Assembly (NCBI RefSeq): GCF_000002985.6
Contig: NC_003283.11
Location: forward strand, 17,733,501 to 17,797,500
Direction of reading: 5' to 3'
Origin: Caenorhabditis elegans
Taxonomy: Eukaryota; Nematoda; Chromadorea; Rhabditida; Rhabditidae
DNA: 64,000 bases
Position numbers and translations under genes: made by a program. Every line of letters begins with the position of its first letter. Position 1 is the stretch's first letter. Below the pieces are notes generated by a model, which searched no databases, was not told the DNA's origin, and saw only the letters and a list, made by a program, of their open reading frames with translations. Below are positions 13,780-52,900 of the stretch, piece after piece.

Positions 13780-14440
13780 CGAGAAAATTTCCGAATGGAG
13801 CAGTGGGATTCTGAATTTATTCCAATCAAACGTCCGGGGTTCGAGTCCGCACAGGGGTATTTATTTTTTGCAAGCTGTGATTTACAAGTTTATAGCTGCA
13901 AAAGTGATTTTTATCGAATTTTTAGGAAAATGTCCGAATGGCACAGTGGGATTTTCCATGTCTATCAATCAGAGGTCCGGGGTTCGAGTCCACACAGGGG
14001 TATTTATTTTTTGCAAGCTTTAGAAATTGAGGTTCGAGTTGGGAAATTCATTTTTAGCGAATTTTCAGGAAAATGTCCTAATGACGCAGTGGGATTTTTA
14101 GTGTCTTTCAATCAGATGTCAGTGGTTCGAGTCCGCACAGGGGTATTTATTTTTTGCAAGCTGTGATTAACAAGTTTATAGCTGCAAAAGTCATTTTAAT
14201 CGAACTTTCGGGAAAGTGTCCGATTGGCGCAGTGGGATTTTCAACGTCTTCCAATCAAACGGCTGGGGTTCGAGTCCGCACAAGGGTATTTATTTTTTGC
14301 AAGCTGTGATTAACAAATTTCAAGCTGCAAAAGTCATTTTAATCGAACTTTCGGGAAAGTGTCCGATTGGCGCAGTGGGATTTTTAATGTCTTCCAATCA
14401 GAGGTCCGTGGTTCAAACCCGCACAGTGACAAATATTTTT
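13780..14440 (+). repeat. 143-bp tandem array of tRNA-like modules (subfamily A)
   Basis: Five copies with A-box-like cores near 13793, 13936, 14079, 14222 and 14365, exactly 143 bp apart. Each has AATGGCGCAGTGGGATTTT, a CAATCAGA-type middle and GGTTCGAGTCCGCACA, and ends in a T-rich run. The linker GCAAGCTGTGATTAACAAG is shared. The array lies between the start of the channel gene and the stop of the C1-domain gene. Confidence 0.9.
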
Positions 14441-14580
14441 GTTATGATGTTTATGAGCCTCAATTGTAACTATAATAACTTTATTCCGGAAAACAATATG
14501 AGTTTATGACTGATTATCAAATTTAACTTTCTCCAATTTTCTTCATTTTTCTTTATTTTTTTTCTCAATTTTTTCAATAT

Positions 14581-15723
14581 TTATTGACACTGAATTCCAC
14601 AATTCCTCAAAACCTTTTCCTGGCATCGAAAATGAACATTTGCATGACAATCCGTGCACTGAACGCCTTGCTTCGTGAGCCCATAGAGCATACTTCCACA
14701 GTGATCACAAAATGTCGGGCGAGTGAAGAAATGCTTGTTAAAGTGATGAGTATTTGATGGAGGTTCTTCCGAAGCAGATCGGCTACGACGAGTTTTCAGA
14801 TTTGTAGTTTCAGCAGGAACCGGAGCTCGGGAAGATGGTCCGAAGGTGCAGCGGGCGGTGATGAGGGCATGGCACCGCTTATGAACGACTGTCTCACAGC
14901 CTGGAAAATGAAATATGAACTAATATTCACTAGAAATCAGGTTCCGTGCTTAAAATCTAGCTTTTGCCTAATTTTTGAGAAAATGCACCAATGGCTCAGT
15001 GGGATTTTCCAGAACTATCGCGCACAAGTCCGGGGTTCAAGCCCGCCATGTGGTCAAATATTTTTGTACGCAGTGTTTAGACATATAAAGACCAGCTTGT
15101 AAATGAACAAACGATTTTACAGGTTTTAAGGAAAAAGTGCCCGAATGGCGCAGTGGGATTTTCGAGAACAACAAATCTTACGACCAGGGTTCGAGTCCGA
15201 CCTGTGGTCAAATATTTTTTTTTTCGAATTTCTAAAATATTTTTGGGTATTTCAGACACGTGGAATTCAAATTTCTATATGTCCGAGCGTAAAAGTTTTA
15301 AGAAATCGTTGAAAATAGACTTTCAAAACTCGTGAAAGTTGTAAAATTGTTTAAAATCCAAAACTGTTACATCGAAATTAGAAATTATATATTGAAATTA
15401 GTGTTTCTCTTATTATGATCATTTTTACAAGTTTTCAAAAAAAATGCCCGAATGGCGCAGTGGGTTTTTCCAAAAACTACCAAGCACACCACCGGGGTTC
15501 GAGCCCATGAGGTGGCAAAATTTTTTTTGTACCCTTCAACTAACTCACCTAGACACTTGTAACCCTGTTTTCCAACACCATATATGAATTTGGAGCAAAA
15601 TGAGCAAAACGTCGGCTGAGCAAGTCCGACGGCTTTGAACTTGTGGCCCGAAATTTCATGGATCTTAGTACCATCCGATTGACGGGTTACGGTAGGAATT
15701 TGCAGTTCCGGTGCCGGGGACAT
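14581..15723 (-). CDS. Small tandem C1-domain (diacylglycerol/phorbol-ester type) protein
   Basis: Two exons, 15549-15723 and 14581-14900, join inside a glycine codon to give 164 residues. Two C1 zinc fingers fill most of the protein: C1A from [18 protein letters not shown] (about residue 25) and C1B from [18 protein letters not shown] (about residue 105). Each has the H-x12-C-x2-C...C-x2-C-x4-H-x2-C-x7-C ligand pattern. The linker has a basic RRSRS patch. C1 domains of this kind recruit proteins to membranes in response to diacylglycerol. The pattern resembles the C1A-C1B pair of protein kinase C, but the frame stops right after C1B with no kinase or C2 domain. The ATG follows ATATCTCAG, a possible splice or trans-splice acceptor, so an upstream exon is possible. 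It could be a truncated kinase relative. Confidence 0.8.
14975..15525 (+). repeat. Three tRNA-like modules in the C1-gene intron
   Basis: Copies at about 14980-15060, 15135-15215 and 15440-15520, antisense to the host gene. Each has AATGG(C)GCAGTGGG, GGGTTCGAGCC or GGGTTCGAGTCC, a GTGGTCAAATA tail and a T run. The middle copy continues into body sequence like that of subfamily A at 20.9 kb. Confidence 0.8.
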
Positions 15724-16079
15724 ACTTGGATTATCAGAATTCTGAGATATTGTAAGCTTCAAGCTTTTATACCTATCCCCCGCACAGGCTCCGCCCACTT
15801 GTCATATTTGATGTCCCCGGAGCTGAGTCAGGAGACGAGCACGCGCGTGGCACAAATCAAATTACGAGAAAAATCTGAAGAGAGGGGAAACAATGCGATT
15901 ATCTAGGCGGCGACAGGGGGAAAGGGATCGAAAATCTCGGTGCTCGCCGAGCACATGTCCCCTTATTCGGAGCAAAAAGAGATGCGACGGCGGCGGCGGA
16001 AAACACAAAAAATAGAGTTTGATTGAGCTTGAAGGGCGGCTAGTAGTCAGTACTCAAAAGTCGAGGCGAGAAAAAAATA

Positions 16080-16605
16080 TATGCCTTGGCGGGGATCGAA
16101 CCACGGACTCATGATCGGAAGTTTTGCGAAATCCCACTGCGCCACGTGTACATTTTTGTTAAAATTTAGCAAAATGAGTTTTTTTTTGGTTGAAATAAAG
16201 TTGAAACGTTTAATCACAGTGTGCAAAAATATTTTACTCTTGAACCCGGGTAGCTAGAGTGAGAGGTTTGCAAAATCCCATTGAGCCATTCAGACAATTT
16301 TCTGGAAAATTAGCTAGACCGATTTTTTTCTTTTTAAACGTGTTTAAACGTTGAATCGCAATTTGTAAAAATTATTTACCACATCGGGGGTTCGAACCCC
16401 GGTCGCTTGATTTGTAGTTCTTCTAAATCCTATTGCGCCACGAGTGCATTTGGCTGAAAAATTTTTTACCTCGTATTTTCCTGTACAAAAGACTAGTATC
16501 AACAGTAATTAGAATATGCAAAAATTGTTCACCACACCGGGGGTTCGAACCCTGGTCGCTTGTTTGGTAGTTATGAAAAATTCCACTGAGCCATTTGGAC
16601 ACTTT
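16080..16605 (-). repeat. Four tRNA-like modules
   Basis: At about 16083-16148, 16240-16305, 16378-16445 and 16530-16600. Each reads as the reverse complement of a GGCGCAGTGGGATTT ... GGTTCGA module. The second copy has a degenerate B box. Confidence 0.7.
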
Positions 16606-17689
16606 TCAAGGAACTTGATTTTTGATCTTTTTCGAAGAGATTTTCGACTCATAAGTGTTGTTTTTTACCAAAGATTATGGAATTTTCAAATTTCGCCTAA
16701 TTTTCAAGTGTTTTAGCATTCAAAATCCCCTCGAAATCCCTGTAAACAGGAAAAAGTCTGAAATTTATCAAAATTTCAGAAAAAAAGTTTATTGTCATCT
16801 TAACATCATGTCATTCCCATCAGTGTTGAAGCTTCTAGTATCTTATCAGCGAAACAGACACATACATCAGTAGTTCGTGGTCTATGGCCGAGCCTGTCAG
16901 GAAATTTTTCAAAATTTCAGGCCACCAAAGTTTGATTTTCTGGAAAAGATTTTTAAAGACCTGAAAGTCTGAAAGTAAATAAAGTTTTGCTGCAAATTAT
17001 AGAAAAATCTGAAAACGGCTCTGAAAAATCAATGAAACTAAAAATTTCTAAAAATTTGGAATCTTCCCCGAAAAGACCCGAAAATTCTAGAAACTTCAGG
17101 AATCTGAAAAATTGAAAAATTTAGGAAAAAAAGCCAAAAAATTCAATTTCCTAAAAATTATATAAATTTGTAAATTTGGAAATTTCTGTCAATCTAAAAG
17201 TTTCGGAAAATTTCTGAAAATCTTGAATATTCCAAAAAAAAAGTGAACCTGGAAATTGTTTCTAAAAGTTGAAACACTCTAAAGTTTGAAAAACTCCAAA
17301 GAAAAATCTGAATGCTTCAGAAGTTTTGAATTTTTTCGGACTCTGGAAAGTGTTGAAAATCATAAAATTTCAATAACACCAGGAAAACACTCAATTATCT
17401 CTGAAAAAATGAAAATTTCAGAATTGAAATTTCAAGGTCAATTTCCTGGAAAATGTTCCCTTGGCATATGAAACATTCATGTTTTATCACGAAAAAAATT
17501 CAAAAACTGTGCTCTTTGCCTACTAGAAAGTGTGCTCTTTACACATCACCTTATCAAACTCTACTTTCAGAAAAAAAAACGAATTAAAATGTTACAATAT
17601 TTCGTAATACGTGTTTCCGGAGACAAAACTGGTTGCTCCTGAATTTTTCAGAAGAAAAATTACGGATTTCTGGCTTCACTCATAAATTG

Positions 17690-18130
17690 AAATGGAAGAG
17701 TTTACCGAGCTAGGCCATTTTGGCTCGGCCATATCTGGGGTAGATTTACGGAGCGTTGCGTGTCGCGTCGCGGCTCGATTTTAGTTGTAAAACTGAATGT
17801 AATTGTCCGCGTGGAGTACACGACTTCCCCACGAGTTGTCCGGGGCGATTGTCAATTGAGCGCGAAATATTCAATGTGAACAATTTATTGAAAATCTCGA
17901 AAAAATCAGAAATTACAATAATTTTTCTGTAATCTAGTAGAAAATTAATATTTTCAAATAGAAAAAAAATTGAATTGTGGTAGGAAATATGAATTTGTTG
18001 GAAAACGTGCTATAAAACCTAAATTACATTTTTCTTTTTTTTTCTGCCGCGGCCGACACTTTTCGGGATCCGCATATTAGGGATATAAGGGATTACGACT
18101 TGTGGCGCGAGGCAGGCGGAGGTTTTGGTG
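17690..18130. repeat. Dispersed GC-rich repeat with GCGTTGCGTGTCGCGTCGCG
   Basis: GC-rich block containing GCGTTGCGTGTCGCGTCGCG, then AGTACACGACTT(C)CCCAC and GCGATTGTCAAT. A second copy of this core lies at about 33636-33745, upstream of the second srh gene. I recognise it as a common dispersed C. elegans repeat but cannot name the family with certainty. Confidence 0.7.
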
Positions 18131-18316
18131 CCGACAGGCCTACTCTAAACTTATAAAATCTGAAAAAATTCTGAAATTCAGGAAACTTTGAAAAAAGTGC
18201 AAATTTCTAAAATTTAGAAAAAAAATCGTTGTTGAAAAAATCTGAAACATTCTGAAATTTTAGAAAAAAAGTGTCAAAAAGTTTTTTGCCTGAAAATTTG
18301 AAATTCTGAATAAATT

Positions 18317-18493
18317 CACGTGGTGTCAGGCTGTCTCATTGCGGTTTGATCTATAAAAAGTGCGGGAATTTTTCCCGAGAAAAATCGTGACGTCAGCACG
18401 TTCTTACCCATGCGAAATCAGTTGAGATGTCTGCGTCTCACCTCCCGCATTTTTTGTAGATCAAAGCGAAATTGGGCTTTCGGACTCCGCGTG
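18317..18493. repeat. Inverted-repeat (PAL-type) element, copy 1
   Basis: Terminal inverted arms: CACGTGGTGTCAGGCTGTCT at the left and TCGGACTCCGCGTG at the right. Inner arms are TTTGATCTA and TAGATCAAA, and the centre has GTGACGTCAGCACG. A second copy is at 31416-31602. Confidence 0.85.
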
Positions 18494-19389
18494 TAAATTG
18501 GAATGAAACTAAAAAACTCTAAAATTTGTGTAAAGTACTGGAAAATACGGAATTTGAAAGAATTTGGAAAATTTTAAATTTCGGCAAACTATTGGAAAAA
18601 TATAACAAATATCTGAAAATTTCTGAAATTATTATTGAAAAAATCTGGAAACACCTTAATTTATTTTTTAAATCTATAAAATTTCAAAAATTAAAGTAAA
18701 TTATAGAAATTTAATTTTAAAAAAATTAAATTAAAAAATTCTGTCACAAGTTCACAATTTTGAAAAAAAAATTTTTTTTCGAATTTTTTAAAAAATTTTC
18801 AGAAATTTCGTAAAACTTTTTTTTCTAAAACTCATCCCCAATAATCTCCAGCTCAGAAGTTTTTTAATTTTTCAAAATTAAACCTCAAAATACACCTCTC
18901 AATATCAAAAAGAGGAGTAACAAGCAAACAAAGAACCCCTGGCAAACGCCCCGAGAAAAACTCCAAACCACACGGAAAGCACACAAAAAGAATGCTCGCC
19001 GAGCTCCGTTGATAAACAATTGATAAAAAGTTACACCATTCCGTTTGTGTGGTTTATGTCACTTATTGAGGTGCACGGAACTGGAAATGCGGAGTTTATG
19101 CTCTGAAACTGTAAAATTTTGGCAATTTGTCGGACATTTTTTGTGAAGAACCTATAAATATAAAAATTTCGGAAAGATAAGAAGAACAATGTCATGTAAT
19201 TCGAATTTCATCAGTTTAAGTTTTAACATTTTTTTCAATCTTCTATTGATTTCCTTATATTTTGAGTTTTCTAGTTGAATTTCGAGTCTAAATTGATAAA
19301 ATTCAAGTTTTAAAACTAAAAAATTCCGACTCAGGGGTATCTAATTACCCTAAAACTTTAAACTTTTGGAAAAAAAACAATAAAAAAGT

Positions 19390-20380
19390 TTTTACCACAG
19401 TGCGGACTCGAACCCCGGTCTTCTGATTGGAAGCAAAACCGTGGAAAATCCCACTGAGCCATTCGGACGAATTTTTCAAAAATGATAAGAAAATGATCAA
19501 AATGCGATAAAAATGATAAAAAGACCCAGAAGTTTCCGTATAAAATAACTTGAAATAATATGTGTTCAGAAAAAACTATTTATTTTCGAAAACTTTGGAT
19601 TTCTTAGTGATTTTTACATATCAAGATTATAAAATTCGAATTCAACACATTTTTATTACCCTAATACAAGTTTTAAATTCGTAAAAATGTTTCGACCACA
19701 GTGCGGACTCGAACCCCGGTCTGGTGATTGGAAGGGAAGTCGTGGAAAATCCCACTGAGCCACTTGGTCATATTTTTTAAAAAATGTCCAGAAGAAACAA
19801 AAACAAGTATAAGTGTTTTTTTTTAATCAACATTTTCTGAAAATTTTCTTGAATTTTCATATGGAATTGCAGGAATTTATTTGATTTTTCGAAAAACGTG
19901 CGTTTTTTAGTTTCTTTGAGTGATTTTCACATATTAAAACTATAAAAAATGAATTCAACACTTTTTGTCACTCTAAAAAATTTTTAAAAATTCAAAACAA
20001 AATTCGATCACGGTGCGGACTCGAACCCCGGCCTCGTTATTGGAAGGGAATTTGTGGAAAATCCCACTGAGCCACTTGAACACATTTTTTGAAAAATGTC
20101 CAGAAAAGGCAAAAACAAGTATAATTGTTATTTTTATCAAAATTTTCTGAAATTTTCTTAAATTGTCTTGCGGAAGTACAGGAATTTGTATGATTTCGCA
20201 AAAAAAAAACGTTTTCGTTTTTTTTTCGAGTGATTTTCACAAATTGAAACCAAAAATACTGAAATCAGGACTTTTTAATTACTCTAAAAAATTTTTACCA
20301 CAGTGCGGACTCGAACCCCGGTCTTGTGATTGGGAGGAAAGTCGTGGAAAATCACACTGAGCCACTCGGACACAATTTTC
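19390..20380 (-). repeat. Four tRNA-like modules, about 300-bp spacing (subfamily A)
   Basis: Modules at about 19395-19472, 19695-19770, 20008-20085 and 20297-20373, spaced about 301, 312 and 290 bp. Each reads on the minus strand as CCAAGTGGCTCAGTGGGATT ... GACCGGGGTTCGAGTCCGCA with a GTGGTCGAA tail. At least three copies (near 19.7, 20.0 and 20.3 kb) also carry a body with TTAGAGTAAT- and GTGTTGAATTCGAATTTT-like sequence. The spacing suggests local tandem duplication of a unit of about 300 bp. Confidence 0.8.
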
Positions 20381-20794
20381 AAAAAAAAATTTAAACTTCC
20401 CAAAATTGGTATTTTTATGATTTTAAGTATTAAAAATAGCTTTCAAGCCAAAAATATCCAATTTTTTGTGATTTTCGTCACATTTTCAAAATTTTTGCCA
20501 TACATTTTTTTGACCTTGGTGTTTTTCCTTGTTTTTCGAATTATGCAAAGTTGATACTCTAAACAAATATGAGAGAGAAATCGTATTCTAACCTATCAAA
20601 AAAAGATGCTATAAAACTGGCGAGCACACTGCATTTTTGATGAGCATAAACTATAGGAGGGAAATGTGATCACTGAGCGAAGGTTTTGAGTACGTAATGT
20701 GATACTTTGCCCATTTTATAGTTCTTGATCATTTGATGTTTATTTTTCTTTTATTTTTCAAAAAAAAAATGCAAAAAAATTTTTTTTTTTGCAC

Positions 20795-21400
20795 CAGTGG
20801 CTCAGTGGGGATTTGCATGACTGCCACTCAGAAGACCGTGGTTCGAGTCCGCACTGCGGTCGAATTTTTTTTCTCGATTTTTAAAGATGTTTCAGAGTAA
20901 CTCAGGCGTGCTGAATTCGATTTTTATATTTATATGCCTCAAAATTTCCTAAAAATTCCCGTTTTTCGAGCAAAAATCCAATATTTGTCTAGTTTGACCT
21001 ATCAAATTTCGCAATTCATTCCGAATAGATATAAACATTTTGGTTTTGCATCATGAAGTGTATGATATCACTAGGTTGTGTATATAAGCACAAAAGTTTC
21101 ATGATATCTTATCATTTATTAATTGCTTCTATTTAATTTCGTCTGCACACTGGGCCTGCAGTTTTCTTAGATTTTTTAAAAAGATTTTTTAGAAAACAAT
21201 GCGAGTATAATTAATTTTATCAAAATTTGGCTTTAAAAGCAATTTTTGAAAAATTGGGTCCAAATGGCGCAGTGGGATTTTACGCAAAATGCCTTCCAAT
21301 CAGAAGACCAGGGTTCGAGTCCGCACTCTGGTCGAAATATTTTTTTTTGATTTTTAATCGAAGTTTAATCAACGTTTTAGAGTAATTATAATATTTCCAA
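20795..21400 (+). repeat. Two tRNA-like modules with body (subfamily A, plus strand)
   Basis: Modules at about 20800-20870 and 21258-21340: GGCTCAGTGGGGATTT or GGCGCAGTGGGATTTTA, CAGAAGACC, GGTTCGAGTCCGCACT, GGTCGAA, then T runs. The first continues into TTTCAGAGTAACTCAGGCG and GTGCTGAATTCGATTTT, the same body as the minus-strand copies. Confidence 0.8.
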
Positions 21401-21694
21401 TTCAAATTTAATAATTTCAGTATCTGAAAATTCCTTTAAAATATATTAAACTCAATAATAAATAAATTTAAAAAGCTAGAACAGTTCTCTGATTTTTTGA
21501 TTTCTGTTTTAACACACTTAGCAAACAGTTCAAAATGTACTGCCAACTTATTTTCTGTTGACCCACTTTAAGCTCCGCCCACTTTTCTTTCCCTAGACTT
21601 TTGTTTCTCCAAACTATAGAGAGATCTTTCGAAAACTGACGGAATTCACTTTGTTTTATTTCTCAATTCCTCCAATTTCAGTGTGTACTTAGGG

Positions 21695-21740
21695 CAGTGA
21701 TAAGAGGTTGATAAAACTGTCGGCAGTTGGACTGATAACA
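21695..21740 (+). promoter_or_regulatory. Cluster of three GATA motifs upstream of the P-glycoprotein gene
   Basis: AGTGATAAGA, GTTGATAAAA and ACTGATAACA lie within 45 bp, about 660-700 bp before the pgp ATG. ACTGATAA is the core bound by intestinal GATA factors in C. elegans. An intestinal enhancer role is inference. Confidence 0.4.
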
Positions 21741-21914
21741 ATATGAAAGAATTTTTGGGCTCTTTCATTTCATTTTTTCGCTCAAGGATCATATTTTCAG
21801 TGACTTTTTGAAATTTCTAAGTTTTTCAGTAGATTTTTTGGTTTAATGTTGGAAAATTTGAAATCAGCATCTATTATTTACCCTAAAACTTTTCGAGAAA
21901 AAATGAAAAATGGT

Positions 21915-22310
21915 AAGCCACAGTGCGGACTCGAACCCCGGTCTTGTGATTGGAAGGGACTTCGGGGAAAATCGCACTGCGCCATTTGGACACATTTTTC
22001 AAAAAACTGCTCAGAAAAAAGTCAGAATATTGATTTTACAGCTAACTTGAGTGAATTATCGAAATTTTCAGCAATTTGGATATACAATATTGAATTTCTT
22101 CCCAAAAACCGTTGCATTCCAGAAAATTTCAAATTTTATTATATTTTTTTCGAATTTTTATTTTGAAAATCGAGTTCAGCATGTCAGAATTACTTTAAAA
22201 ACTATTCGAAAAAGCAAATAAAAAATTTCGACCACTGTGCGGGCTCGAACCCCGGTCTTCTGATTGGAAGGGACTTCGTGGAAAATCCCACTGAGCCATT
22301 CGTACATTTT
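21915..22310 (-). repeat. Two tRNA-like modules just upstream of the pgp gene
   Basis: Copies at about 21918-21992 and 22225-22305, spaced about 313 bp, with the subfamily A body between them. The second ends less than 100 bp before the pgp start codon. Confidence 0.8.
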
Positions 22311-22396
22311 TCTGGAAAACTACGATTTGAACCGTTTTTTGTGACTTTTTCGATTTTCTGCGTACTTTTTTGAATTTTATGTATTTTTTTCAGGTA

Positions 22397-25300
22397 ATGG
22401 GTCTATTCAAAAAGAAGAAGGATGATTCATCATCGGAAGGGTAGGTATTTCTGAGGAACCGCACCTAAAAACGCTGAAAATTTTTGCAGATCATCAGAGA
22501 AAAAAGAAGAAGCTCCACCGCCGCCAAAAATCTCAATTTTTCAACTATACCGGTACACAAGCACAGTAGATCGGTTAATGTTGGCAGTAGGAATCATTGT
22601 ATCATGTGCCACCGGTGTAGGACTCCCTTTGATGTCTATTATTATGGTAAAATAATTTTTTTTAAATAGTTTTGTCTTAAAATAACCTAAAAATAATCTA
22701 AATCATTGCAGGGTAACGTGTCACAAAACTTCGTCACCCTTGGTACCATTTTCCTGGATCCTAACTCAACTGCGTCAGAAAAAGCTGCGGCAAGAGCCGA
22801 GTTTTCTCATGAAGTTATTCAAAATTGTTTGAAATACGTTTACCTTGGATGTGGAATTTTTGCTGCTGGTTTTCTACAGGTATTGGGTTTAGTTTTGCGA
22901 AAAATCGAAATTGAACAAAAAAATTTCGGAAAAAATAAATTAAGAAATTTCGAAAAAAAATTTTCGAAAAATGTTTAGTCAATTTTTTTTTCAAATCGCC
23001 TAAAGTTATAAAATTCCGAACATATACACAAATTTAAATGAATTTCACTTTTTCTAGCTTTTATCCGCAAAAAAATTGAATTTTCTAAAAATTTAAAGAA
23101 AAAACTTTTGAGCACAATTTCAGGCCAAAATTTCGCAAATTTTGTAAAAATACAAGTTTTCGACATGAGATTTGAATTTAGCAGCTTTGAATTACTCTAA
23201 AAACATCCTTAAAAACCAAAAAAAAAGTTTTGGCCACCATGCGGACTCGAACCCCGGTCTTCTGATTGGAACGGAAATCGTGGAAAATCCCACTGAGCCA
23301 TTTGGACACAGTTTTCAAAATTGTTTAGAAAAATCAAAAAAAAATTGATTTTACAATTAATTTGAGTAAATTTTTAAAAATTTTCGGCAATTTGGATATA
23401 CAAAATTGAACTCCTTCCCAAAAGCCGTTTTATTTTTGAAATTTTCTAAATTTATTCATTTTTTTTTTGAATTTTTTCATTGAAAATCGACATCAGCACA
23501 TTAGAATTACTCTAAAACATTTTTAAAAACAAAAAAAAAGTTTTGCCCACTATGCGGACTCGAACCCCGGTCTTCTGATTGGAATGGAATTTGTGGAAAA
23601 TCTCACTGCGCCATTTGGACACATTTTTAAAAATTCTCAGAAAATTAGTTTTTCTTCAAATCTCTTCAATTTTTAAGGCTTCATGCTTCATGGTAATCTG
23701 TGAGAAACTGTCAAATAGATTCCGGCGGCAGTTCTTCCATTCTGTGATGCGTCAGGAGATTGCCTGGTACGACAAGAATACGTCTGGAACTTTGTCGAAT
23801 AAGCTTTTTGAGTGAGTTTAGAAATTTTAAAGCTTTTTTTTTTTAAATTTGGAATTGATTTGAATTTTGAAAAATAATATGACCGAAACAAAAATTGTTG
23901 CTTAAAAATGTTGAACTTTATTTTTCTAAAAATTTTTTTCCGCAAATCGGCAAATCTGCAAATTGCCTGAATTGAAAATTTCCGTCTAATGGGCAAACCG
24001 GCAAATCGGTAAACCTACAAATTGCATAAATTGAAAATTTCCGGTAAATTCGGCAAACCGGCAATTTGTCGGAATTGAAAATTTCTGACAAATCGGAAAA
24101 CCGGCAAATCGGCAAATTACTTAAATTGAAAATTTCCGGCAAGTGTGCAAACCGGCAAATCGGTAAACCTTCAAATTGCATAAATTGAAAGTTTCCGGCG
24201 AACAGGCAAACCTGCAATTTGCAGGAATTGAAAAATTCCTTCAAATGGGCAAATGGGCAAATTGCCGGAACTGAAAACTTCCGGTAAATGTGCAGACTGG
24301 CAATTTACCAAAAATGAAAATTTCTGGCAATTGGGCAAACCGGCAAATTGCCCAAATTGAAAATTTCCAACACATCGACAAATCGGCAAATGTCCTGTTA
24401 CAAATTTCCGGCAAATCGGCAAACAGGCAAATTGCCGGAATTGAAAATATGCCGATTTGCCGGATTTGCCCCCTCCTCATTTCATATAAATACCCCTTAA
24501 AACCATTAATTTTTTCAGCAATCTTGAACGTGTCCGCGAAGGTACCGGAGACAAAGTCGGTCTGGCCTTCCAGATGATGGCTCAGTTCATCGGTGGATTT
24601 GCCGTGGCTTTTACCTACGACTGGCTTCTAACCCTAATTATGATGTCACTTTCTCCATTTATGATGATTTGCGGCTTGTTCCTTGCCAAACTTCTCGCCA
24701 CCGCAGCTACCAAAGAGGCTAAGCAGTACGCCGTTGCCGGAGGAATCGCTGAGGAAGTTCTGACCTCGATCAGAACAGTTATTGCGTTTAACGGTCAGGA
24801 ATATGAGTGTAAACGGTACGAGGATGCTCTGGAGCACGGTAAAAAGACTGGAATCAAGAAAAGTTTCCTAATCGGAGCCGGGCTTGCGTCCTTCTTCGTC
24901 ATCATCTACGCCTCCTACTGCCTCGCCTTCTGGGTTGGAACCAATTTCGTGTATAGTGGACGCCTGGAGTCTGGTACAGTACTAACCGTTTTCTTCTCGG
25001 TGATGATGGGATCCATGGCACTTGGGCAGGCTGGACAGCAATTTGCAACCATTGGTACAGCTCTGGGAGCCGCCGCCTCCCTCTATGAGGTCATTGACAG
25101 AATACCGGAAATCGATGCATACTCTACTGAGGGACAGACTCCGAGCAAGATTTCCGGAAGGATTTCTGTGAATAAAGTGGAATTTACGTACCCGACACGT
25201 GCTGATGTGAAGATCCTTAAGGGTGTCTCGTTGGATGCTCAACCCGGACAGACTGTCGCATTGGTTGGAAGCTCCGGATGTGGAAAGTCGACTATTATTC

Positions 25301-36152: not shown

Positions 36153-39100
36153 TTATTTCTTAACCGCCAAACTATTGGGACTAACACTTTTATTGAACAT
36201 TTCAAAATAGATATCCCCTTCGGTTTCCTTTGGTTTTGTAAATGGGAAAATCGATTTTCTCCGGATTACGGCTACCGTATTCGGGCGGATTTTGTGCTGC
36301 AGGGTACGGTAGTAAGATAGAAAAACTTTCCGAAATGATTCCATCAACGCGACCACCGTAGGCACAACCACGAGAGGATCACTGAAATAATTGATGTTAG
36401 AACAGTAGAAGGTATTGTAATAAGAACTGGGGGGGGGGGGGGGGGGTACTGTAGAGGGTAGTGTAGGGAGTACTGTAACAGTACTGTTGGAGTACTGTAG
36501 GGATACTGTAGCAATACTGTGGGAGTACTGTATATTGAAAAGGGTGTTGTGTGGGTACTGTATGGGTACTGTAGCAGTACTGTGGGAGTACTGTAAATTG
36601 ACGATGGTGTTGTGGGGGTACAGTGGGGGTACTGTAGAGCGTAGAGGGCACTATGGGGAGTACTGTACCGGAATTTTGAGAATGACTATTGGGATATTGT
36701 AGTGGTAATGTCAGGGTCCTGTAGCAGTACTGTAGATTGAAGAGGGTGTTGTGGGGTACTGTAGGGGTACTGTAGCAGTACTGTGGGAGTACTGTAAATT
36801 GACGATGGTGTTGTGGGGGTACAGTGGGGGTACTGTAGAGCGTAGAGGGCACTATGGGGAGTACTGTACCGGAATTTTGAGAGTGACTATTGGGATATTG
36901 TAGTGGTAATGTCAGGGTCCTGTAGGGGTACTGTAGATTGAAGAGGGTGTTGTGGGGTACTGTAGGGGTACTGTAGCAGTACTGTGGGAGTACTGTAAAT
37001 TGACGATGGTGTTGTGGGGGTACAGTGGGGGTACTGTAGAGCGTAGAGGGCACTATGGGGAGTACTGTACCGGAATTTTGAGAGTGACTATTGGGATATT
37101 GTAGTGGTAATGTCAGGGTCCTGTAGGGGTACTGTAGATTGAAGAGGGTGTTGTGGGGTACTGTAGGGGTACTGTAGCAGTACTGTGGGAGTACTGTAAA
37201 TTGACGATGGTGTTGTGGGGGTACAGTGGGGGTACTGTAGAGCGTAGAGGGCACTATGGGGAGTACTGTACCGGAATTTTGAGAGTGACTATTGGGATAT
37301 TGTAGTGGTAATGTCAGGGTCCTGTAGGGGTACTGTAGATTGAAGAGGGTGTTGTGGGGTACTGTAGGGGTACTGTAGCAGTACTGTGGGAGTACTGTAA
37401 ATTGACGATGGTGTTGTGGGGGTACAGTGGGGGTACTGTAGAGCGTAGAGGGCACTATGGGGAGTACTGTACCGAAATTTTGAGAGTGACTATTGGGATA
37501 TTGTAGTGGTAATGTCAGGGTCCTGTAGGGGTACTGTAGGGGTACTGTAGCGGTACAGCCGAAGTACTGCAGGGACTTTAGCGGTACTGTGAGAGTAACT
37601 GTAGCGGTATTATGGGAGTAGTGTAGGTGTACTGTAGGAGTACTGTAGAAAATACAATAGGAGTACTGTAGGGGTACTGTAGGAGTACTCACGTGTGGAC
37701 GGTCGTGTCAAATATCAAATTGCACCACATTTGCACCTCATCCGAAAAATCTAGAATAATTGGTAGACATTCTGCCAAAATCAGCATTATTATAAAAGCG
37801 CCGACGACAACTACCGCAGGGCGCATTAACTGAAATATGGAGACAATTGATCATTAAATGGGCGGAGCCCAACTCACCCGACAACTGCGCACATTTTCCT
37901 GTAACTGATACTTGATGCTCAGCGTATAAAGGACCATTGTATTATCATGTCTTATCAGAGAATCGAGACGCTTTCGATTCAGAAAATAAATAATTTCCAG
38001 TAAAATTATGGATACAACAGCCACGGCGAGACACACGATAAATATGGATTTCATCAAAATTTGCTGAAAAACCGCTAAAAATGCGTAGGTCAACGAGATA
38101 AGAAAGTTCGCTCCAATGAGAATCGCCGCGATCCATACTCGAGGTCGGGTCTCGTAGTCTCTGCAAAACAAAAGTTTAAAAAAATTGGAGGAATTTGCAA
38201 AAAACTGAAATGTTTTGTTTATTTTTGAAAAAAAAAACTTCAAAAATTCCCTAGTTGCAGTTTGTCCGAGTGGCGCAGTGGGATTTTCGTTGTGCTAAGG
38301 AGGCCACGGGTTCGACCCCCACGGTGGCCAAAACTTTTTTCTTGGGGAAACAATTTTTTTGGCGCGGGTTTCTGTGATCTCTGCATTTCAGAAATGCCGA
38401 AATTCAAACTTTCCAGATTTTTCTTACTAGGTTTTTTCACTTTTTCCAGAAAATATCTACAAAAAAGCCGGAAAAACTTACTTTAAAAAATTAACATACG
38501 AAAAAAAAACTATATTTCACTAGAACCTCTTAAATTCTTCCAAAAAATTTTAAAAAATCACAAAATCGCTGCTTGTCCGAGTGGCGCAGTGGGGTTTTCG
38601 TTGTACTCAGGAGGTCACGGGTTCGATCCTCGCGGTGGTCAAATCTTTTTTCTTGATGAGTTAATGATTTTGGCGTGTCTTTTTGAGATTGTAAATTATT
38701 AAAATTCAAAAATATTTAGATTTTCATATATTTTTTTCGGATTTTTTGAAAAAAAATTCCAATTTTTTAAATTCTGTAAATTATTTTCAAAATTTCTAAA
38801 ATCTCTCACTTTAGCAAAATCGTAGCCATTGCCCGCTCCGCTGTAATACAAAGCAATGTGTGAACACCAAAAAACATATAATGATATCTGAGAAGGGCGG
38901 CCCAAAACAATAATCCTGACCTCGACTGCAAGCCGTCTGAAATTTGATAATTTTTTGTAAAACTGGCTGGGAAGGCTTCGAACCTGAGGACCACTGAAAA
39001 ATAAACACAAAAGACCGACTGACAACTAGCTCAAGCCATAATAACATGCCAGAAATTATAATCCAGCGAGCATTTCTGTGTGGAATGCTGTAAAATAATA

Positions 39101-39708
39101 TTTTTTGGAAAAATCATTAAATTCTGCATATTTTGGCAGTTGGAAGTTTTTTGATAGCTCTACCCACAGCAGAGATACGGAGGTTTGAAGTCAGCGCGCA
39201 GAGAGAGTGTGGGAGGGAGGAGAGACGCAGGCTGTCTCGTCGTCTGCGTCTCCCACTCCCTCACGCTTTCTCTGCGCTCTGACTTCAAACCTCTGTATCT
39301 CTGCAGTGGATAGAGCTATCAAAAAATTTTCAACAGCAAAATCAATCAGCGTAAAATTTTACGTCGAATGAAATAAAATTTAAAAAATTTTGAAAATTTT
39401 GAAAATTTTACAAAATTCAAAAAACTCACTTTGATTTGCCGATACAAAAAACTCCAATAAACGTAACAAAAATTGATAACAAAAACAAAAAATTGATTAG
39501 AATAAATTCGAAAACAGAAAATTCCCTATTCGAGTTGTAAGTAAAAACCCAAACCACATTGACATCGCCGGATTCTTCTGGAAATTTTTCAATTGTTCAG
39601 ATTTTTTTGTATAATTTCCAAATAACAAGAAATCTTACGTGTTCTGTCTAAAACTTCCTCCTTTGTAGCGAGCCTAACCGAAAAAATAGCCAAAAATTGA
39701 AAATTCAT
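36153..39708 (-). CDS. sre-class chemoreceptor (7TM GPCR)
   Basis: Seven exons: 39639-39708, 39430-39577, 38984-39087, 38810-38936, 37878-38160, 37693-37829 and 36153-36381, in phase, 365 residues. Intron 3 is only 47 bp. Family marks are LLRYHYMFFGVHTLL, then AERAMATILLKDYETRPR, and later YTLSIKYQLQENVRS; these match the sre class better than sra. At least seven hydrophobic stretches are visible. Such proteins are putative chemosensory receptors. Intron 6 contains an 18-G run and a 201-bp minisatellite; the introns at 38.2 and 38.6 kb hold tRNA-like modules and another holds a hairpin element. The 3' end converges on srh2. No gene number can be given. Confidence 0.88.
36429..36446 (+). repeat. 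18-base guanine run
   Basis: Uninterrupted run of 18 G on the plus strand (C on the sre sense strand) in sre intron 6. Long G tracts in C. elegans are known deletion hotspots when the DOG-1 helicase is lost. Confidence 0.9.
36460..37690. repeat. 201-bp minisatellite of GTACTGTAGGGGTACTGTAG type
   Basis: Higher-order units spaced exactly 201 bp: the landmark ACGATGGTGTTGTGGGGG starts at 36601, 36802, 37003, 37204 and 37405. Units are nearly identical. Each is built of about 10-bp GTACTGTAGG sub-repeats. Since 201 is a multiple of three, one minus-strand frame stays open for 431 codons. Confidence 0.95.
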
Positions 39709-40560
39709 TATAAAGCTCGAGCAGTGAAACCAAAATCTCTGAGCTAACTAAGAAGTTTTTTTTCGAAAAAAATTAATCACCTGTTTTGGCGTGAGTTGTC
39801 AAAACCAGGTGTTATGACAAAATCAGAGAAATTGTAGATTTTCAGATTTTTAGACAAGAAAATTGTGGCTATAAATGGCGTGGAAACCAGAATGATCATA
39901 TAATCACGTAAAATTAGGTTCAATTTTATTACGTTTTCAGTTGAAATCCGAAAAATCAAATAACTTACAAGTATTAAATCAAAAATCTGTTTTCTGAAGG
40001 AAAAAGAGTGTAGGAGTGGCGCAGTGAGATTTTCGGTAATTCCACAAGGTCACGGGTTCGACCCCCGCTGTGGTCGAAAATTTTTATTTTGATGAATTTG
40101 CGTCTGATAAGTTTTTCAAGGGGTTGAAAATTATTAATTTCAAATTTTTCGAAAATTTGTGGCCGAATGGCGCAGTGCGATTTTTGTTGTACACAAAAGG
40201 TTGCGAGTTCGACCCCCACCGGGGTTTAAATCTTTTTTGTTTTTTTTTGGCCACGAGGTGCGATTCGTATGCTAGAAAACTTGAAAAATTCTGAAAATCA
40301 GTTTTTAAAATATATTTTGTCCAGATGGCGCAGTGTGATTTGTGTTGTACGTTCTAAGGAGGTCACGGGTTCGACCCCGGCCATGGTCGAAATATTTTTA
40401 TTATGTTTAAATTCTAATTTTAACATGATTTGCAGTGTTGAATTCATGATAATTTATTATTTGAAAGTTTTCACAAATTTCGGCCAAATGGCGCAGTGCG
40501 ATTTTTGTTGTACTCAGAAGGTCACGGGTTCGACTCCCCGCTGTGGTCGAATTTTTTTCT
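38255..40560 (+). repeat. Six tRNA-like modules (subfamily D) in and upstream of the sre gene
   Basis: Copies at about 38265-38330, 38575-38640, 40010-40075, 40160-40225, 40318-40385 and 40480-40548. Common form: GTCCGAGTGGCGCAGTGGGA, TTTTCGTTGTACTCAGAAGG, TCACGGGTTCGACCCC, then GTGGTCGAA and a T run. All are antisense to the sre gene; the first two are in its intron 4 and the last four lie upstream of its start. Confidence 0.82.
39137..39342. repeat. Hairpin element in sre intron 2
   Basis: Highly symmetrical copy: GAAGTTTTTTGATAGCTCTA ... GGAGGTTTGAAGTCAGCGCG at the left and CGCTCTGACTTCAAACCTC ... TAGAGCTATCAAAAAATTT at the right. The arms have few mismatches. Confidence 0.88.
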
Positions 40561-46947: not shown

Positions 46948-49900
46948 TCACCGATTTCGTAGTTTTCTCTGTTGTCGTTTTTCGCCTTCTTTCACACTTA
47001 ATTGCTGATTTAGAACATTAAAATAGTGATCAGATGATGTTGTAAGTGACGCTTGCAGTGTATTTGATACGGTGTCACGATGCTGAAAATTTCAGATTTT
47101 TAGACGAATTTTGAGAAATTAAGTCAGTTTTTTGACTGGAAATTCAAATTTTCCAGCAAAAAATATGCCACAAAAACTCACTTTTTTCTGGAATACCCAT
47201 AGGTAGAGTGGCATGACAACTGAGTAGAGGGGTACAAAGTTCACAACTGAAATAAATTAATTTTTTGGGTGAAGTTTGATATAATTAATCAATAATTTGT
47301 AAATGCTCACAATTTTGTCCTTTTTTTAAAATTTGACCTACTTTTTTAAAATTTGACCTACTTTTTAAAAATTTGGGTACTAGTCTGAAATCACCCCGCC
47401 ACTTTTTTTTATCATTTTAATATTATCCATTTTAATAAAACGTGATGTCCATTTTCCATCTTTAGGCTTAGAAATGGTTATTTCCTAAGCCTAAAAATAC
47501 AAAAACTCCACACGTTTTTATTTGAAAATTTATTTAAATTTAAAGAAAAAAGTGGCGGGGTGATTTCAGACTAGTACCCAAATTTGACCTACTTTTTAAA
47601 AATTTGACCTACTTTTTACAAATTTGACCTACTTTTTAAATATTTGACCTAAATTTTCTAAATTTGGCATACTTTATTGTAATTAAACTTCTTCGAATCT
47701 TGTCCTTTTTTCTAAAACTTAATCAATAGTTTGGCTTCAAAATCTTTGTTCAAAGTTTCATCAAATTAAATTATAGTTTGAATTTAAGCTGCAAAGTGTC
47801 AAACACTTTTTTCCCCAATTCAAAAAAGTAGGTTAAACTAGAATTTTGAAAAAAAAAACAAAGTTCAAATTTCAAAAAATTACCTTCGACTAAAGCATGA
47901 TACGTGGGTCGTTCCATTTCACTACTGTAATAATGTACGGGCGCGGACAGTGTGAAGCAGGTGAACACAAAAATCAGATCACACAAGGTGAAAGATTGAA
48001 GAAGTCGAATATTCCGCATATTGGCCTCCAGCTGGTACCGATTACTTAGAGTGGCGGTGACGGATCGGGCACGGATTCTCTGAAAAATTTCAAAGTTGAA
48101 AAAGTGGGAAAAATTCTGAAAAGTAGGTCAAATTTTAAAAATTAGGTGAAATTTTGAAAAAGTAGGCCAAATTTTGAAAAAGTAGATCAAATTCTGAAAA
48201 CTAGGTCAAATTATGAAAGAGTAGGTCCAATTGTGAAAAAGTAGATCAAATTTTCAAAAAGTAGGTCAATATTTGGATAATTAGGTCAAATTTTGAAAAA
48301 TAGGTGAAATTCTAAAAAGTGGGTCAATACTTGAAAAGTTAGGTCATGTTTTGAAAATAGTACGTTTTATTTGAAAAAAGGAAGGCACATTTTTAAAAAG
48401 TAGGTCAGATTTTGAAAATGTAGGTCAAATATTAGAAAAGTGGATCAAACTTCCAAAAAATTGGTCAAATTTTGAGAAAGTAGGTCAAATACTGAAATGG
48501 GGGTCAAAATCTGAAAAAGTAGGTTGTATTTTGAAAAAGTAGGTCACCTAAAATGTGAAATACTTTTTCAAACTGACCTACTTTTTCCCAAATTTGATCT
48601 ACTTTTCTGAAGATTTGACCTACTTTTTCTTCGAATTTCTTGACTCACCTTATTCAACGCCAACAAACACCGATTAACAATTCTGGCGGCAATTTGAAAA
48701 ACAATAATCAAGACTTCTGGAATTATCACCCAAAGCGGAAACTTTACAGAGATGCTCTGAAAGGTTTCAGGTTTTTTTATTAATTTTAAGGGGGAATGGG
48801 CTCACGGAGCAATAGTAGTGTGGAGCATCAAAATCGTACTCGTGGAATACAGAAGCCATTAGAATAAGAGAGCAGAGGAGCTGAAAAAATTTTTGAAAAA
48901 ATTTTGGAAAAAAAATTCAAAAAAAAAAATTTTTTTTTTGAATTTTTTTCTGCAATTATCGATTTTCTGCACTTTTTTCCGATCTTTCTTACCTGAAATA
49001 TAGCTATAATCACTCCAATCGACTTATATCCATGCTCATAATGTTGACTGTAATATGTGGCAAATCCCCGCTCAATCATTAGAAAAATCGTTGTGGTACT
49101 TGACAGAATCAGGCCGAACATGTAGGGAAATCTTAGGATGAAGCATCGTAAGGAGCTCGGTTGCATGTCATAGCAATCGACGCCGAAAAAGTAGTAGTAC
49201 AAGTCGAAGAGGTGTAGGAAGAATCTGGAATTTTTGAGAATTTTGATAAAATTTGGCTTTTGGAGTGATTTTCGCTGGATTTCAATGTGAAAATCAGATT
49301 TAAAACCCTTGAAATCTACTATCCACTTTTTTTTTTGAAATTATAAGCAGCTTTCAAAAAAGTGTACTTTTGGCGCAGTGGATAGCGGGCGCGGCTGGTA
49401 ATCACAAGACCATGGTTCGACCCCCACGACGACCAAATATTTTTGTCTTGACGGTTTTATAATTAACACTTATTTTAGGATATTCAATTATCAGTTTCGA
49501 TAATTTTTTCAGAAGTTCAACATCAAGTAAAAGGGACTTTTTGTAAAAATGTCAAAATTCTGGGGGTTTTGAGTAATTTTTTGCACTTTTTGAACATCAA
49601 AATCAGCTTTGAAATCTCTGAAACCCCCTATCCACGTTTTTTCAGCAATTTATGGAAAATTCGCATTTGGCGCAGTGGATAGTGGGCGCGGCTGGTAATC
49701 ACAAGACCGGGGTTCGAGCCCCACTGTGACTAAAATTTTCTGTAGATGTTAATTTGATATTTAAACAATTATTTTACATCGAAAGTTTAAAAACTTGAGG
49801 AAAAACAGATTTGGAAAAAAATTTGGAATTTTTTTTTTTAATTTTTTGAAGTTTTTTAAAAATTGTTTTTTTAATAAAAAACTTAAAATTTTGATACTTC

Positions 49901-52900
49901 TCAACTCACCTCGGCACACAATGAATCAGCAACGCGGCGCAGTGAATTTTCATTAGAAATTTCAGATTAAAATGCATCAACTTGTAGCGGCAAATGCTTA
50001 GCCACGTATGAATTAGATAGAAGACGGCGACGGCACTGCAGAACAGGTTAAAATATAAAACTGAACGTAGAAATCGGGAATTCGCCACTTGGAGCATCTC
50101 GGAGCAATTGAAGACCAGCGGGTCCTGGGAGCCAGTCATTCTGTAAGAAAATCAGATTTTTAGTCAATTTTTTCCATGTCAAAATATATAAAATCCAATT
50201 CTTTGGAGTGTTCAACTATAAATTTCAAAAAAAAAAAATCATTAAAAAAAAAAAAAAAATTGAAATTTGAGTCATTTTCTCTGTTTTTCTACCAGTTTTT
50301 TTCTGAAATAACATTCATGTCAAAATCAAAAAAAAAAAAAAAAAAAAATTTGGCCACTGCGGGGTCGAACCCCGGTCTTGTGATTACCAACCATCCCTGT
50401 TACCCATTGCGCCAAAAATGCATTTTTTCAAAATTTTTACAATGTTCTGGATAGCGGTTTTAAATAGCCCTAAACCCAAATTTTTTGGTAAAAATTCACA
50501 AAAACGCTCAAATTATGATGTTTTTCTTCTTCTAAAAGTTTTAAAAAAGTATTTGGAAAACAAGTATCGGGAGCTATAATAAGTGTGTCTCCTGAATAGT
50601 AAGTTGTTGAGCAAAACTTTGCGGCACCATTTATTTTTTGAGCGCAAAAGCTCAAAAGAGCCACATAATAATGCGACAGGGAAAGTAGTTTGAACAATAA
50701 TTGGTTCGCACATTTTTCTGTCGGAAAAAATACATTTTTGTCATCTAAATTGCGCAATTGAGCTGCAAAAAATATTTGGCCTGGGCGGGGGACGAACCCC
50801 GGTCTTGTGATTACTAGTCAATCCTGCTAACCACTGCGCGAGAAGTGTAATTTTTAAAAAATTGCAAAGAAACGTGTTAGCTGCTTTTTTAAGCAGTTGT
50901 ATATTGAAATTTCAACAAAAAAATGTTGGCAAACATATTCAAAAATTCTTCCAAATTTGAATTTTGCAAATTTTAAGTATATGGCAATACAATTCTGACG
51001 GAGAAAAAATTATTTGCCACCGTGGGGATCGAACCCCGGTCTTGTGATTATCAGCCGCGCCCACTATCCACTGCGCCAAAAGTGCATTTTTCAAAAAGTT
51101 GCAAAAAACGTATTAAGGTTATTTTTAATAGTTTTGAAGCAATTTTTGTAGAAAAACGTGCCAAATTTGATAGGAATCCCTAAATTTTGAATTTATTTTC
51201 TGGTTTGAGAAAAAAAGTGACAATTTGTTGTGCACATGAGTGAGCACACAACAAATGCACTAAAAATAAATGGTAATTGAAAAGATATCGGGGGGCTTCA
51301 CGGAACAAATGAGTCATGAATAAAGAATTAATTTGGTCGTGCCAAGGCAAAGTGGGCGGGGGTTGCTTTCAGGGGCCCGACACTTTATTGTCAGCCTGAC
51401 CTTTCTCAGAAAAAAAAAAGAAAAAACGAAAAATTCTCGATGAAAAAAATAGAGAAAAAGATGTGAAAATGAAAATAGGATGGCTAATTGGAATTCGTTT
51501 ACCAGGGAATTAAATGGAATTGGAAATGACCTTTTAATGGTTTATAGCACTTCTAGTGAATTCGAGCTTTTCCAGCAAAAAAAAAAAAAAAAAAAAGGCC
51601 GAGAAAACTGAAATTTCGAGAAAAAAATGTTAGAAAAATTTTTTTTTGTAAAAAAATTTGAAACTTCGTTTTGCGAAGCTTAATTTCAACGTGAATGTGT
51701 CTAACAAAAATATAAAAAGCAAAAAACCCGTACCCGGAGTCGAACCCCGGTCTTGTGATTACCAGCCGCGCCCGTTACCCACTGCGCCAAAAGTGTATTT
51801 TTAAAAATTGCTGAAAAACGGTGGATAGGGGTTTTCAAGGGTTTTGAAGCTGATTTTCAATGTGAAAATTCATGAAAAGCGTCGGAAAAACGAGAAAAAC
51901 TATAAAGCTTTCTTGATAGAGTACTAGAGCAAAAAAATGGAGCAAAACTTTGTAGCTTCGACTCATTTTTTTGCTCTTCCGACTGCACAATGAGCGCAGA
52001 CAAGGAAATTGAAAATTATGAGCTTTGAACGATGACTGGTGAAGTTATTAAAAGTAATTGGTATAGTCAAGAGCAATTTTGGGGCACAAAATGCCCTCAA
52101 AATTGGGGCACAAAATGCCCTCAAAACAAGTTGAGAAGGGCGAAAATTGAACAAAACCATGTTTCAGCTATCAAAATTGAGTTATCTAATCAATAACACC
52201 AAGAAAAAATATTTGTCGCTATTGGGGGTCGAACCCCGGTCTTCTGATTACCAACCATCCCCACTATCCACTGCGCCATAAGTGCAAAATCCAAAAAACT
52301 TGCGGAAATGCGGTTAGCGGGTTTTAAGTGACTAAAAACAGATTTTGATGCCAAAAACTTCAAAATTGTGATGTAAAGCCCTAGTTTTTGAATTTATTTT
52401 GTTGTTTTTTTTTAATGAGAAACCTTGAAATTGAGATAATTTGAAAACAAATGCCTATGTGTAATCAAATAGTCACAAAAGTTGGCACATCAATAAGAAA
52501 AAAAATTGTGACGTAGGTGGGGGGTCGAACCCCGGACGTCAGATTACTGGTGGAGCTCACTAGCCACTGCGCCAAAAGTGAATTTTCTTTAAAAATTTTT
52601 AAAGGTTTGAAGGTGAGTTTTTAGAGGTTTTAAAGCTAATTTTCATGTTAAAAATTCATAAAATGCAGATTTAAAGGTAGATTTAAAAGTTTTTTCAGAA
52701 GAACAGCGTTTTCCAGGAAATTTCCAAAATAGTAAAATAAAACTTCCGAAAAAGTTCTTAGAGGCCGTCTCAGGAGACACCTAATGGAATTAACTTCCGG
52801 CAACAACAGAAAAAACACATTAGCATGGAAAAGTTGAACAAATGTTGAGAGAAAAAAATTTCAAAAAAAACATTTTCTTAAAATTTTCAAACAAAAAACA

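Follow-up and report, generated by a model that had tools for sequence, protein, structure and literature searches.

A 64-kb stretch of the Caenorhabditis elegans genome (contig 5:17,733,501-17,797,500 of 7 contigs totalling 100,286,401 bases; hereafter the window, with positions counted from its first letter) contains clusters of short tRNA-like modules, or heads, in which an A box, a spacer and a B box are followed, at an almost constant distance, by a T run. We find that many neighbouring same-strand heads stand on a ladder of spacings with a step of about 155 bp and that A/T tracts in the linkers are locked in helical phase to the boxes. Contigs 1-5 are taken here to be chromosomes I-V, which would put the window on the right arm of chromosome V. 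Judging from sequence, we consider it an even call that the cluster belongs to the tRNA-like TFIIIC modules (extra-TFIIIC sites, CeRep3-type) that populate C. elegans autosome arms and that its arrays are a chromatin-spacing element. More tentatively, these hundreds of modules, on one arm per autosome, at multiples of about 155 bp and with A/T tracts whose phase is locked to both boxes, might be a selected TFIIIC-nucleosome ruler. Such a ruler would fix the place and rotation of nucleosomes between TFIIIC anchors and so demarcate heterochromatin in a genome that lacks CTCF, with length and helical phase conserved where sequence is not.

Heads and their distribution

Between positions 13,796 and 23,613 lie 21 heads, 10 on the plus strand and 11 on the minus strand. 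The whole window has 44 heads at no more than 3 total mismatches, compared with a mean of 0.05 in 20 Markov resamples. When an exact A-box/B-box pattern was searched for in the whole genome, 309 places matched, and the reversed control pattern matched none. Among the 297 places tabulated, which include about 9 real tRNA-Thr genes (judged by sequence), 161 are on contig 5, 57 on contig 1, 44 on contig 2, 23 on contig 3 and 12 on contig 4; the other 12 of the 309 are on contig 6 or unlocated. Contig 6 has 1 place among the matches listed and can have at most 12 of the 309. Within contigs the places are concentrated at one end: the last third holds 156 of 161 on contig 5 and 56 of 57 on contig 1, and the first third holds 41 of 44 on contig 2, 20 of 23 on contig 3 and all 12 on contig 4.

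We characterized the modules in a fetched sample of 151 kb, made up of 16 segments with 20 clusters; the segments at contig 1:14.23 Mb and contig 2:2.43 Mb were chosen from pattern lists. A T run of at least 4 begins 10-24 bp past the B box in 171 of 179 heads, and one lies within +16..+45 in 172 of 179, as compared with 0.48 of random stretches. The A-to-B distance falls mostly into three classes about 5 bp apart (37/38, 42-44 and 47/48 bp, over all fetched segments), each step being half a helical turn. Between clusters, conservation is confined to the head, from about -20 before the A box to about +33 after the B box. Recent pairs from the same cluster (n = 18) show identities of 0.91 in the A box, 0.96 in the B box, 0.86 in the spacer, 0.81 in the T run, 0.80 in the body that follows it in some copies and 0.76 in the late linker; because the heads were found by their boxes, these values are suggestive of selection and go no further.

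A sister class with TAA-type spacers forms back-to-back divergent palindromic pairs at window positions 1146-1262 and 6001-6117, and the genome-wide list has 13 minus-plus head pairs with B-box ends 141-161 bp apart.

Spacing of the heads

The exact list gives 110 same-strand neighbours less than 1.5 kb apart. Their spacings peak at 274-323 bp (46) and 143-196 bp (14), and none of the 110 falls at 197-273 or 324-433 bp. Longer spacings, of 330-1300 bp (n = 47), follow a period of about 157 bp (R 0.51), which jittered spacings rarely match (p = 0.0005 for periods of 120-200, P = 0.001 for periods of 120-400). The fetched segments hold 47 units of 270-330 bp, whose length is 305 ± 10 bp. Local alignment sorts the late linkers of these units (from +125 to the next head) into 35 groups, and when one unit per group is taken the length is still 304.8 ± 9.7 bp. 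At the midpoints of the 305-bp units we found no decayed head above neighbouring control points.

One locus (L031, contig 4:1.635 Mb) has a tandem sub-array with a spacing of about 195 bp, off the 155-bp ladder.

Phase of the A/T tracts

The linkers are rich in A/T runs with a period of about 10.2 bp. Phase coherence at +36..+86 is 0.72 for heads (121 of 180 with enough tracts), 0.28 for real tRNA genes (25 of 61, p = 0.14) and 0.04 for random points (136 of 200). The Rayleigh p treats heads as independent, so the cluster-level test is safer; with one vector per cluster, coherence is 0.93 at +36..+86 (17 clusters), 0.68 at +86..+136 (18 clusters) and 0.65 upstream at -70..-20. The upstream tracts are keyed to the A box (0.56) and not to the B box (0.20); downstream the lock is to the B box, and it spans roughly 100 bp. 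When the T run is used as the anchor, coherence is 0.54 for heads and 0.08-0.23 for other T runs in five distance classes. It is the phase, not the amount, of A/T periodicity that is special near heads.

Over 11,154 between-cluster pairs, the mean cosine stays at 0.39-0.44 in all seven alignment-score bins, from the least to the most similar, and where both heads have a tract the letters agree at 0.515, as compared with 0.501 expected. Since the cosine is flat across similarity and the letters are near expectation, the phase lock is not explained by shared sequence.

Three clusters with 19 heads, two on contig 5 and one on contig 3, were held out and predictions were fixed beforehand. The T run was found 12-23 bp past the B box in 19 of 19 heads. 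Downstream coherence was 0.71 (16 heads) at a phase of 25 degrees, compared with 48 predicted, and upstream coherence was 0.63 (19 heads) at 89 degrees, compared with 53 predicted. The spacings were 159, 160, 169, 292, 292, 292, 306, 309, 741 and 891 bp, with R(156) of 0.76; the last two fit the ladder poorly. Exact-match heads of these clusters were already in the ladder list, and therefore the T runs and the A/T phase alone are a fresh test.

Tandem descent and evidence against a spacing element

A different explanation is that the arrays are satellite DNA without a function: old tandem arrays that derive from tRNA and lie in arm DNA of general A/T periodicity, with the ladder a relic of units of about 155 and 305 bp and head conservation coming partly from the box-based search. 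The region contains clear tandem arrays of 143 and 312 bp, A/T periodicity is general across it, and 18 within-cluster pairs reach at least 0.72 when their linkers are aligned. When the linkers are taken with the body, 36 of the 47 units connect, and global alignment of the late linkers gives 20 groups, one with 17 of the 47 members; common descent thus accounts for part of the 305-bp spacing. We nevertheless regard a satellite as rather unlikely. It does not readily account for a unit length that is kept where late linkers lack local homology, for a phase lock that does not depend on similarity and that control T runs, tRNA genes and random points show far more weakly or not at all, or for a T run that holds its position in nearly all heads.

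The shared linkers count against a chromatin-spacing element, and so do the following results. A wider head set has the same spacing peaks but also five same-strand spacings at 231-269 bp and five at 332-427 bp, which leaves the gaps of the exact list partly filled. Quantisation of the spacing in steps of about 10 bp was rejected (R at most 0.19). Cluster-level coherence is lost at +136..+186 (0.20), where random points reach 0.185 (p = 0.018), and beyond -70 upstream it is 0.29 and 0.10, neither significant. T runs away from heads are weakly coherent, significantly so in four of five distance classes, and A/T periodicity near heads does not exceed that 0.8-2 kb away (ratio 1.46 compared with 1.94 and 1.62). 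The control sample of real tRNA genes is small. In the held-out clusters the T run lay at 13-19 bp in 16 of 19 heads, below the predicted 90%, and the phases were 23 degrees (downstream) and 36 degrees (upstream) off prediction. The T-run stretch is no more alike than the body in the 18 recent pairs, and a positioned terminator would be odd for a purely transcription-independent site.

The body and the question of retroposition

Ten copies at 19.4-23.6 kb, called subfamily A, have a common body of about 80-90 bp downstream of the T run. The initial annotation had reported that sequence is shared after the module, and the continuations that it quoted, TTAGAGTAAT... and GTGNTGAATTCGA..., are present and recur with changes in these ten copies. 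The sharing extends well beyond them: a profile of the ten-copy body, run against the 151 kb, gave 35 more matches outside the seeds (E<1e-3), 8 on contig 4, 4 on contig 1 and 23 on contig 5. The last include the copy at 15.2 kb, rightly described as continuing more loosely, whose body is weak (E=7.9e-4). In 34 of the 35 matches the midpoint lies 51-97 bases downstream of the B box of a same-strand head, and the 35th, at a segment edge, adjoins a listed head. Control profiles built from the upstream flank of the head, the late linker and the reversed body gave no match at E<1e-3 outside the seed region, and late-linker or upstream sequence common to clusters was rejected on this basis. Among 5' flank pairs from different clusters, 0.9% score above the 99.9% null, some of which may include a neighbouring head.

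At E<1e-3 no body was detected in the cluster of 19 heads on contig 2, in two clusters on contig 1, in the other clusters of the window at 38-40 and 49-53 kb, or in some further clusters; the segment at contig 1:14.23 Mb has 4 matches and that at contig 2:2.43 Mb has none at this threshold. The query for loci L001-L030 reached +63 after the B box, so these loci favour body-bearing copies. The interval given in the initial annotation also takes in the copies at 13.8-14.4 kb; these form a separate 143-bp tandem array and have no body match at E up to 1. In part of the family, head and body together make up a discrete module, and between clusters the head alone is conserved.

A tRNA-like head joined to an unrelated body had been read as the architecture of a short interspersed nuclear element (SINE). 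The arrangement itself stands, since discrete head-body modules occur on three chromosomes and on both strands with unshared flanks. A true SINE, moved by a long interspersed nuclear element and with the body as its 3' part, is however highly improbable. The T run lies between head and body (at least 5 T in nine of the ten subfamily A copies and 4 T in one, as read from the sequence), so RNA polymerase III (Pol III) should stop before the body. Independent retroposition would also not be expected to yield same-strand copies on a ladder of about 155/305 bp, and on these two grounds we set retroposition aside. Target-site duplications, which had been proposed as a check, show no clear excess: flanking direct repeats of at least 9 occur in 13 of 178 cases, as compared with 9.8 expected, and those of at least 11 in 3 of 178, as compared with 0.8 expected, one of the three being in a tandem array. 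Old copies could have lost them. These results caution against classing such repeats as SINEs.

Relation to tRNA and Pol III genes

ARAGORN called no tRNAs in the window and Rfam none at its gathering threshold; between 13.5 and 24.5 kb, Rfam gave no tRNA match at E up to 10. The acceptor stem shows no clear covariation (z at most 1.7), and of the 5 T-stem pairs no more than 3 survive in 118 of 179 heads. We therefore reject a tRNA gene or structured pseudogene, as the acceptor stem is not kept.

The heads had also been likened to tRNA-Arg, a relation that our comparison with a subset of isoacceptors does not establish. Heads with GATTTT-type spacers (105 heads, the class to which the present cluster belongs) have a median best tRNA match of 0.56, compared with 0.54 when shuffled, and tRNA-Gly-TCC is their commonest best match. 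In subfamily A, a 15-base stretch agrees with tRNA-Arg-TCT, by eye, at 14 of 15 positions. In the TAA-type sister class, tRNA-Arg is closest in 13 of 21 heads, with a median of 0.67 that exceeds the shuffled 95% point of 0.61. With best matches spread over ten isoacceptors and the GATTTT type at the shuffled level, a single parent tRNA was rejected.

The near-fixed T run suggests that Pol III use of these modules occurs or has occurred. The heads might even be live Pol III small-RNA genes like mir-1829, each giving an RNA of about 85 nt that ends at the T run and is perhaps confined to the germ line. The two boxes are complete and a positioned T run follows them, and mir-1829 and mir-4937, C. 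elegans Pol III units with such boxes, yield small RNAs according to the available text of PMC12157501. We think this improbable, given the poorly kept T stems, the lack of clear acceptor-stem covariation and the lack of any tRNA among the Rfam matches.

Proposed mechanism

If the arrays are a chromatin-spacing element, the modules would spread and persist as DNA arrays, by tandem duplication, inversion and movement of array pieces, and not by retroposition. TFIIIC on the A and B boxes would act as a fixed barrier, and the phased A/T tracts would favour one rotational setting of the adjoining nucleosome. Successive modules would then stand about one TFIIIC footprint plus 0, 1, 2 or more nucleosomes apart, the step of about 155 bp corresponding to one nucleosome, and the array could space chromatin at the heterochromatin borders of the arms. 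On this model, ladder and phase lock predict the number and rotation of nucleosomes between sites, which existing micrococcal nuclease sequencing (MNase-seq) and chromatin immunoprecipitation sequencing (ChIP-seq) could test. The family would also be a case where length and phase, rather than letters, appear to be kept in non-coding DNA.

Features of the window

Pfam matched three of five translated stretches from neighbouring genes, which points to genes for an ion channel, a C1-domain protein and an ABC transporter. Judged by eye, heads fall between exons of the C1-domain gene, directly before the first exon of the ABC transporter gene and in one intron of the transporter.

Table 1. Heads, bodies and further clusters by window position; the ends of bodies are approximate.
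Feature	Position	Strand
tRNA-like head, 143-bp tandem array copy 1	13796..13848	+
tRNA-like head, array copy 2	13939..13991	+
tRNA-like head, array copy 3	14082..14134	+
tRNA-like head, array copy 4	14225..14277	+
tRNA-like head, array copy 5	14368..14420	+
tRNA-like head	14992..15044	+
tRNA-like head, weak body match	15146..15198	+
Weak body (E=7.9e-4)	15220..15308	+
tRNA-like head	15453..15506	+
tRNA-like head	16092..16144	-
tRNA-like head	16388..16440	-
tRNA-like head	16541..16593	-
Subfamily A head	19404..19461	-
Subfamily A body beyond T run	19294..19382	-
Subfamily A head	19705..19762	-
Subfamily A body	19595..19683	-
Subfamily A head	20017..20074	-
Subfamily A body	19907..19995	-
Subfamily A head	20307..20364	-
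Subfamily A body	20197..20285	-
Subfamily A head, short spacer	20798..20850	+
Subfamily A body	20872..20960	+
Subfamily A head	21265..21322	+
Subfamily A body	21344..21432	+
Subfamily A head	21927..21984	-
Subfamily A body	21817..21905	-
Subfamily A head	22241..22298	-
Subfamily A body	22131..22219	-
Subfamily A head	23243..23300	-
Subfamily A body	23133..23221	-
Subfamily A head	23556..23613	-
Subfamily A body	23446..23534	-
Further cluster, 6 heads (five with 38-bp A-to-B distance), no body at E<1e-3	38271..40537	+
Further cluster, 9 heads (43-bp A-to-B distance), no body at E<1e-3	49371..53449	.

Other repeats also occur in the window. Interstitial 6-bp arrays at 10342-10779 comprise 39 copies of AGGCTT and 13.5 copies of TTAGGC, which we take to be the nematode telomere unit. 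A 328-bp tandem repeat (3.6 copies, 98% matches) lies at 29112-30286 in the ABC transporter gene region. At 36517-37539 there is a 201-bp tandem repeat (5.1 copies at 98%) made of GTACTGTAGGG-like 11-mers, with a look-alike at 9.2-9.5 kb; GC skew across 36-38 kb is 0.40.

Comparison with known systems

The heads resemble tRNA genes (tRNA-Arg TCT/ACG) in box sequences and box distance, and the TAA-type sister heads resemble tRNA-Arg; they differ from tRNA genes in having no ARAGORN or Rfam match and no kept acceptor stem. With mir-1829 and mir-4937 they share type 2 Pol III boxes and T-run terminators. Those are, as far as the consulted parts of PMC12157501 describe them, few loci, and in mir-1829 the precursor occupies the stretch from B box to terminator, which here is about 15 bp long. 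No mir-1829-like hairpin was found between the B box and a T run so placed.

CELE45, an annotated C. elegans SINE, is described in the cited portions of PMC8457455 and PMC6873666 as a short Pol III-bound repeat; it has 583 copies, two dense X-chromosome clusters and Pol III on 95% of active copies. The present family, for which contig 6 holds no more than 12 of the 309 places, has no such dense X clusters, and identity with CELE45 was rejected on the distribution of copies. Periodic An/Tn clusters (PATCs) make up 6-10% of the C. elegans genome, according to the portion of PMC7725773 consulted. The linkers have the same roughly 10-bp periodic A/T runs, as assessed by periodicity measures other than the published PATC algorithm, and differ in that their phase is fixed to tRNA-like heads.

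The closest likeness is to the extra-TFIIIC sites (Stutzman et al. 2020, PMC6950938), which in the text available have strong A and B boxes and lie in dense clusters on one arm per autosome, with the right arm of chromosome V richest and X poor, at a median interval of 1207 bp. That text calls CeRep3 putative tRNA pseudogenes and describes where the C. elegans sites lie without settling what they do; its main part nowhere uses the words SINE, tandem, periodic, PATC or terminator. The present family appears to fit by motif and arm distribution: both boxes are strong, in heads that were searched for by these boxes, and clusters lie on one arm per autosome and are rare on X. If contigs 1-5 are chromosomes I-V, as we assume, the arms match those named in the available text for extra-TFIIIC sites. 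Among the papers listed in searches of the open-licence PubMed Central (PMC) literature, none describes the ladder, the body or the phase lock in its title or abstract opening. We add these three features to the extra-TFIIIC sites and CeRep3, and the 155-bp ladder and the A/T phase lock are apparently new.

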